DNA from: Lachnospiraceae bacterium
Lineage (GTDB): Bacteria > Bacillota > Clostridia > Lachnospirales > Lachnospiraceae
DNA: 64,000 bases
NCBI GenBank assembly: GCA_017938145.1
Contig: JAGBCB010000019.1
Span: forward strand, 1 to 64,000
Direction of reading: 5' to 3'
The notes beneath the pieces are model-generated. The model was given only the letters and a program-made list of their open reading frames with translations, made no database searches and was not told the DNA's origin. Position 1 is the stretch's first letter; each line of letters begins with the position of its first letter. The translations under genes were made by a program, and so were the position numbers. Positions 34,086-43,529 of the stretch are shown piece after piece.

Positions 34086-34107
34086 AAACTCTAGTTTTAT
34101 ATTTTAA

Positions 34108-34352
34108 AGCAATGACCTGAACCAGTAAGTTTATGGCGCTTTTCAGAGAGTCTGCGGTTGGTGTGAGCAGACAGGCAAAGTTTACCGAACTCATCAGGTG
34201 GCACCGGGGCAGAAGGAGATTTGTTCTTTGTGTAGGTTCCGGCGGGAATTCCCGTTACAGAATGTAAAGTGCCCGGGCAACCGGGAATCAGAGTGGTACC
34301 GCGGTATATACAGTCGCCTCTGGTTGATGAAAGTCAGCCAAAGGCGACTTTT
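34108..34352 (+). promoter_or_regulatory. Leucine T-box riboswitch with terminator
   Basis: The stem I base pairs ACCTGA (from about 34113) with TCAGGT (34194-34199). AGTAA and ACCGAACTC form the two sides of the specifier loop, and the conserved stem I sequence CAGAGAG...GGTTGGTGTGAG follows (34144-34167). The probable specifier codon is CTC (Leu) at 34190-34192. The T-box sequence AGAGTGGTACCGCGG is at 34290-34304. A terminator stem GTCGCCT / AGGCGAC with TTTTT ends near 34352. Uncharged tRNA-Leu would bind and allow read-through into leuS. Confidence 0.92.
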
Positions 34353-42812: not shown

Positions 42813-42842
42813 TTGACAAAATATGTTCAGTATGAGTATAAT
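42813..42842 (+). promoter_or_regulatory. Consensus promoter in front of a repeat RNA
   Basis: TTGACA at 42813-42818, 18-bp spacer, TATAAT at 42837-42842. Transcription would begin near 42849, where a perfect hairpin GAAAATAGT-aat-ACTATTTTC (42849-42869) opens the RNA. Confidence 0.8.
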
Positions 42843-42868
42843 AAAGATGAAAATAGTAATACTATTTT

Positions 42869-43016
42869 CAGGTGAGCTGACACCATAAAAATCTGACAGA
42901 TTAGCCAGTTCATCGGCTGGCAGGTTGGGGAGCAACAGAAAAACTCCACATTTCAGCTGCATTTCATAGGGCAGCAGGTTGGCAGACAACAGAAAAATCA
43001 GCAAATAGTAGAAAGT
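42869..43016 (+). repeat. Three degenerate ~53-nt direct repeats
   Basis: Units 42869-42920, 42921-42974 and 42975-43016 (the last shorter). Strongest agreement is in the first 25 nt of each unit; units 1 and 2 also both end in a CAGTTCAT / GCATTTCAT segment. Confidence 0.7.
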
Positions 43017-43045
43017 AAGGTTGTCCGAAAGGGCAACCTTTTTCT
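43017..43045 (+). terminator. Terminator between repeat RNA and toxin-like gene
   Basis: Ten-bp stem AAGGTTGTCC / GGGCAACCTT with a GAAA tetraloop, followed by TTTTT. Partial read-through would supply the downstream gene. Confidence 0.9.
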
Positions 43046-43062
43046 GTAGGAAGGAGAAGAAT

Positions 43063-43529
43063 ATGTTGAAGTTGGATTCCGTGATTTGAATTTCCTGCAT
43101 TTAACAGGAGTTAAATCACATTTATCAGCCCAATTATTTTACTCAAGTTGCATTGATAAAAAACTTTCTGAAAAGGACTTCGAATTTGATAAACAAGGAA
43201 AAGCACAACAAAAATTGTTAGTATTACCTTACCTTTCAGAGTTGCTATATAATAGTTGTATGATAGGAGAATTCATTAATAGTGGAATTTGTCTTAAAGC
43301 AGATTACTTTGTTGGTAATACAAAAGTAGTATTAAGCCTTGGATTTAAAAATGGTATCGGAACAGATTATCCGGTCACTTTATATAGGGAGGATGTTAGA
43401 AAACTTACGCACCCAACGAATCGGGTTTTGGCAATTTTCAAAAAAGAGTATAATCAAATGAAGTATTCTGGTTGTACATATTTGGCAAAAGGATATAAAG
43501 AATCGGATTTTGATTTAGAGAATAGGTAG
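43063..43529 (+). pseudogene. PBECR4-type small nuclease-like gene with a one-base frameshift near its start
   Basis: ATG at 43063 with AGGAAGGAG upstream stops after eight codons. Inserting one A in the run at 43069-43070 gives a continuous 155-aa frame beginning MLKVGFRDLNFLHLTGV and running to 43529. As it stands, the intact part is readable only from TTG at 43086. The protein resembles what I recall of PBECR4 (Barnase-EndoU-ColicinE5/D-RelE-like) nucleases: FLHLTGVKSHLSAQLFYSSC, KLSEKDFEF, VLSLGFKNG, RVLAIFKKE. Together with the upstream repeat RNA it may be an inactivated RNase toxin. A sequencing error is the alternative. Family call is moderate. Confidence 0.6.

Follow-up and report, generated by a model that had tools for sequence, protein, structure and literature searches.

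The locus at positions 42813 to 43529 of the window, the 64,000-nucleotide stretch of a Lachnospiraceae contig (JAGBCB010000019.1) analysed here, raises the question of whether a repeated RNA lying ahead of a nuclease-like gene forms a type III-like toxin-antitoxin system built on a new kind of toxin, as a preliminary description had proposed. In the ToxIN and CptIN loci described in PMC5086642 and PMC4627078, one promoter is followed by a structured RNA with pseudoknots and A-rich cut sites, by an intrinsic terminator and by the toxin gene. What stood of the proposal is a conserved, covarying RNA linked to a PBECR4 gene; what did not is a working gene in the window itself. We consider it likely that the locus belongs to a large family of RNA-antitoxin (type III-like) systems and has decayed.

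In order, the locus contains a promoter that matches the consensus in full, a structured RNA, an intrinsic terminator and what remains of a PBECR4 gene (Table 1). As judged from sequence layout, RNA gene, terminator and toxin gene thus share one operon in the manner of type III loci, and the promoter, the terminator and the gene order reported earlier were all recovered. Only this promoter, among three promoter-like sites, matches the consensus in full; at the loose threshold of the scan, shuffled sequences averaged 4.3 sites. A strict terminator script was positive upstream of 25 of 39 PBECR4 genes and of 8 of 85 control ORFs, the controls being ATG frames of 200 aa or more, taken without curation. 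Imperfect stems are visible by eye in several of the 14 PBECR4 leaders that the script missed.

Table 1. Features of the locus in window coordinates
Feature	Position	Strand	Evidence or partner
Sigma-70-type promoter, TTGACA-18-TATAAT	42813..42842	+	12/12 consensus matches
Class A RNA core	42869..43006	+	matched by model R1 (1-137), which has the window among its rows
Hairpin 1, GGTG-AGCTGA-CACC	42871..42884	+	loop 42876-42880 pairs with P3 at 42998-43002
Segment P1 (TCTG), 3' of A-run 42887-42891	42892..42895	+	pairs with loop 3 (42983-42986)
Variable-loop hairpin, unit 2 (GCCAG/CTGGC)	42904..42921	+	helix 4, 74% of cells paired
Hairpin 2, GTTG-GGGAG-CAAC	42924..42936	+	loop 42929-42932 pairs with P2
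Segment P2 (CTCC), 3' of A-run	42944..42947	+	pairs with loop 2
Variable-loop hairpin, unit 3 (GCTGC/GCAGC)	42956..42975	+	helix 7, 81.5% of cells paired
Hairpin 3, GTTG-GCAGA-CAAC	42978..42990	+	loop 42983-42986 pairs with P1
Segment P3 (TCAGC)	42998..43002	+	pairs with loop 1, closing the RNA
Intrinsic terminator, separating RNA from gene	43017..43040	+	sequence scan
PBECR4 gene remnant, open frame minus N-terminal ~35-40 codons	43050..43529	+	PF18813 match, comparison with intact homologues

The open frame behind the terminator matches PF18813 (E 1.2e-30; profile positions 39-187 of 188) with a score of 107.8 bits against a gathering cut-off of 27, which bears out the earlier assignment to a PBECR4-like protein. 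The complete, frameshifted gene of 155 codons that accompanied this assignment did not hold up. No ATG lies ahead of the conserved core, and the ATG that follows the ribosome site, at 43063, starts a frame of just 8 codons. Lacking some 35-40 N-terminal residues that are present in intact homologues, the window copy is, by sequence comparison, a truncated relic of a toxin gene beside an intact RNA. The copy from the same genus (L010, genome G001) is also broken, being split over two frames. Four intact homologues cover nearly the full PF18813 profile. Searches of PADLOC, and of NCBIfam at its cut-off, returned no hit for four homologues.

Comparison with known toxins was performed at the level of profiles and of predicted structure. 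Alignment with hhalign against nine ToxN proteins of the same bacterial family gave probabilities of 0.3-0.4%, with no indication of homology to ToxN. CptN was compared solely through a PDB sequence search with a 29-sequence profile, which yielded no CptN hit and no relevant chain at E up to 5; the chain library presumably includes both ToxN and CptN. An AlphaFold model built from 16 sequences was weak (mean pLDDT 67.1; 55 of 201 residues scored under 50), and a Foldseek search with it gave a best E-value of 1.4, with nothing below 1; the Pfam name is therefore the basis for assigning the BECR fold. One histidine, H52 in the numbering of L012, is invariant among 29 aligned proteins and may be catalytic. 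The window's genome also encodes a ToxN-family protein at another site (G000:C66, L133; PF13958, E 2.6e-43). The PBECR nucleases, including PBECR4, are a predicted RNase family (Iyer et al. 2017, PMC5512222) to which the window gene belongs. Their setting in that paper is one of phages, mobile elements and polyvalent proteins, whereas the genes described here are linked to an RNA; the terms 'RNA antitoxin' and 'noncoding' are absent from its main text.

The RNA had been described as three degenerate repeats whose hairpin arms change together from GGTG/CACC to GTTG/CAAC. This co-change and the A-runs are indeed present, and three hairpin units begin at 42871, 42924 and 42978, with spacings of 53 and 54, but they do not form a simple array. 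In this RNA, which we call class A, loop 1 pairs with P3 at the 3' end, loop 2 with P2 and loop 3 with P1, so that pairing runs across units. By contrast, ToxI and CptI are described as self-contained pseudoknots (PMC4627078), and class A units 2 and 3 comprise two kinds of hairpin each, unlike ToxIN and CptIN arrays. The tandem array of near-identical repeats that serves as a mark of type III systems is absent from the window RNA: Tandem Repeats Finder reported no array there, which makes the repeats degenerate, and two units 54 apart are 76% alike over 38 nt with differing loop sequences. An Rfam scan of the window RNA returned no family at the gathering score, drum (RF02958) included. Elsewhere in the window, at 34103-34324, a T-box leader (RF00230) scored 119.6 bits.

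To evaluate the pairing scheme, we used alignment A4, comprising 31 class A RNAs (30 distinct sequences, the window among them). These were collected by hairpin pattern, and the conservation of the GTTG/CAAC stem is therefore partly a product of selection; the loop partners lay outside it. L010 (contig end), L058 (deviating RNA), L068 (by-eye reading only) and duplicate fetches were left out; from A6, L136 and L139 were excluded (wrong frame or odd end), leaving 9 of 11. Over the 30 distinct rows, from which the structure had itself been read, the 13 pseudoknot pairs form in 390 of 390 cells, and 11 of them change on both sides, with 51 such cells in all. Loop partners slid out of register pair in 26-42% of cells. 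On four of five measures none of 500 shuffles was as high as the observed value; on the fifth, the count of pair types, 215 of 500 were. The full structure of 35 pairs is formed in 92.7% of cells, with both-side changes at 25 pairs, and the A-runs are conserved in A4. Covariation thus supports pseudoknots in this RNA, a feature of type III antitoxin RNAs. Taken alone, the window RNA folds with a z of -3.2 (2 of 200 shuffles as good) and its minimum-energy structure contains the loop 1-P3 and loop 2-P2 helices. In the single-sequence loop-pairing test, 12 of 60 shuffles scored as high as the window RNA, which is not significant, so it is the alignments that carry the loop-pairing claim. Visual inspection also showed loci without an intact toxin whose RNA has two units (L120, L125) or, through duplication of one unit, four (L117).

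A search of genome_contigs identified 19 relatives, mostly in Lachnospiraceae and including Eisenbergiella tayi, and the association of gene and upstream RNA was found in all of them (19/19, the L010 copy being cut by the contig end). Additional genomes provided further copies. Two phage records match, Erysipelothrix phage phi1605 and Streptococcus phage Javan100; the RNA plan is kept in phi1605, which is one of the A4 rows, and also, as judged by eye, in Javan100. The annotated start of Javan100_0011 (L068, 2276-3046) falls inside the apparent leader RNA, and the gene probably starts later. Neither the viral_contigs scan nor the plasmid collection contained a relative. Sampling of the window's bacterial family yielded 75 PBECR4 rows in 57 of 299 genomes, and sampling across the phylum found the family rare, in 4 of 398. 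PF18813 also matches in the Lactococcus lactis control genome. Two further PBECR4 genes are present in the window's own genome. The one in G000:C39 (L002, L066) has a class A RNA upstream; the one in G000:C25 (L003, L065) has a different leader, whose first and last loops match distal segments by eye, a pairing unsupported by the single-sequence test.

The coupling was then considered from both sides. PBECR4 genes were scored as intact when the profile match started at 12 or earlier and ended at 150 or later, in a frame of at least 180 without a stop. This rule retained 40 of the 75 rows, and a class A or drum RNA lies upstream of 30 of these 40. The other 10 match neither RNA model; by eye, their leaders resemble one another and contain terminator-like hairpins. 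Single-sequence loop-pairing tests on 14 unmodelled leaders were mostly not significant: 0 and 2 of 60 shuffles were as high for L156 and L064, 4 of 60 for L150 and for L031, and 6 to 60 of 60 for the remaining ten. The leaders L155 and L156 have two short units in which, by eye, the loop pairs with the segment after its own A-run, the arrangement closest to a classical tandem pseudoknot array (shuffles as high: L156 0/60, L155 12/60).

Starting from the RNA, a search with model R1 returned 37 class A rows in 30 genomes. PBECR4 or a remnant of it follows in 20 of them, 13 being rows of A4 and 7 not, and none was detected in the other 17. Reading 14 of these 17 revealed toxin remnants in 4 and none in 10. 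The nearest genes of 10 class A loci vary, the only ones shared being a glutamate-dehydrogenase-like gene (twice) and ThsB-TIR (twice), so that RNA plus gene looks like the unit. An antitoxin would be expected to persist at loci that have a broken toxin or none, and the RNA does so both here and elsewhere. At L102, where the loop pairs of a class A RNA look intact by eye, the next gene is acetyltransferase-like and takes the place of PBECR4. A Thoeris-like TIR protein (PF08937) is encoded just upstream of the RNA in L018 and L019 (2000-2560).

A second RNA, drum (Rfam RF02958), was found upstream of other PBECR4 genes, in 7 of 18 scanned loci. It was reportedly first presented in a 2017 paper, and the open-licence portion of the PMC literature covered here states no function for it. 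The 299 genomes of the family contain 33 drum rows, 29 of them over the cut-off, and in 22 of these 29 PBECR4 or a remnant lies 14-142 nt downstream on the same strand. The remaining matches are one at a contig end and six lone loci, which were read: L077 has an apparent PBECR4 C-terminal remnant, and the other five show no remnant among frames of at least 60 aa. Like the class A RNA, drum sits upstream of a PBECR4 branch, sister to that of the window, and has hairpin loops whose partners are distal segments lying behind A-rich stretches; it differs in sequence and fold, and the window RNA does not match its model. In drum, too, loop pairing is backed by covariation, over 26 aligned rows. A loop pairs with the segment that follows hairpin 2 in 93.6% of cells, with changes on both sides at 6 of 6 pairs, and the inner loop pairs with the terminal segment in 78.9%, with such changes at 5 of 6. 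In a quick tree of 29 toxin proteins, 26 of them labelled (14 class A, 12 drum) and 3 carrying neither label, the RNA type changes once, a count that 0 of 500 shuffles reached. The drum rows do not form one clade in this tree, and a one-clade topology is not rejected (p-AU 0.162). We lean towards the view that this orphan RNA is the antitoxin of one PBECR4 branch, as part of a new class of PBECR4 RNA antitoxins with an interlocked plan.

Several other readings of the RNA were weighed. It could be a cis-acting attenuator or riboswitch that sets readthrough into PBECR4 and has no action on the protein, and the terminator between RNA and gene agrees with such a role. There is also a precedent in C. 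difficile, where the AbiF leader RNA RCd22 binds its abortive-infection toxin and represses in cis as well (PMC12373285). However, by eye the conserved core stops short of the terminator and terminator sequences differ among loci, and the RNAs survive at loci whose gene is gone or broken, which makes a purely cis-acting RNA unlikely. The AbiF locus resembles the present ones in having a leader RNA with a terminator upstream of an abortive-infection toxin; it differs in its toxin, AbiF being a HEPN protein, and in its RF03085 motif, which, like every other Rfam family, finds no match at the gathering score in the window RNA. AbiF-like systems have also been proposed as ancestors of Cas13 (PMC12373285), and together with the tight coupling and the structured RNA this would fit a guide or activator, PBECR4 and RNA being an active RNA-targeting effector. 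In all 30 distinct class A rows, though, the loops of the hairpins are already occupied by internal pairing, which argues against a free guide, and the RNA is retained where the toxin has been lost; we regard this reading as improbable.

An ordinary member of the ToxIN, CptIN or TenpIN families would share with this locus the A-rich sites and the succession of elements from promoter through RNA and terminator to gene. Yet Pfam assigns the protein to PBECR4 and not to ToxN, and the hhalign comparison with ToxN and the PDB sequence search described above point the same way, leaving this reading very improbable. That degenerate repeats, unseen by Tandem Repeats Finder, lie by chance beside an unrelated pseudogene is refuted by conservation and covariation over 31 loci and retains next to no probability.

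The antitoxin reading is therefore the one we prefer. Weighing against it are the many class A RNAs with no PBECR4 detected (17 of 37 rows), most of those read lacking any remnant, and the 10 of 40 intact PBECR4 genes that fit neither RNA model. By comparison across loci, the RNA is conserved, contains pseudoknots, is linked to PBECR4, follows the toxin branch in its type and is kept beside a broken toxin. By analogy with ToxIN, CptIN and AbiF/RCd22 (PMC5086642, PMC4627078, PMC12373285), it most likely binds and blocks the nuclease. In the mechanism that we propose, one promoter would produce the multi-pseudoknot RNA, and the terminator would let only some transcripts pass into the PBECR4 gene; by limiting readthrough, it would leave the RNA in excess. 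The RNA would then bind the PBECR4 protein, probably an RNase, and keep it from acting; cleavage of the RNA at the conserved A-runs may come first. Known type III toxins cut at A-rich sites (PMC5086642), which makes such cutting of class A RNA plausible; pairing of loops across units would equally suit one uncut RNA. We infer the toxicity and RNase activity of PBECR4, its binding and neutralisation by the RNA, the cutting at A-runs and any role of PBECR4/RNA pairs in phage defence. The window copy would represent a locus in which the toxin gene has lost its N-terminus and the RNA has stayed intact.

Together, PBECR4 and its leader RNAs, drum included, may well constitute an unrecognised class of RNA-antitoxin systems, set apart from ToxIN and CptIN by a toxin unrelated to ToxN at the level of sequence profiles and by loops locked onto other units. 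If so, RNA-antitoxin systems would gain a toxin family with no ToxN likeness at the profile level, common in the window's own bacterial family (57/299 genomes), rare in the phylum sample (4/398) and present in two phage records. The interlocked loop pairing would be an RNA antitoxin plan worth solving, and the link to PBECR4 gives the previously unexplained drum RNA a testable role.
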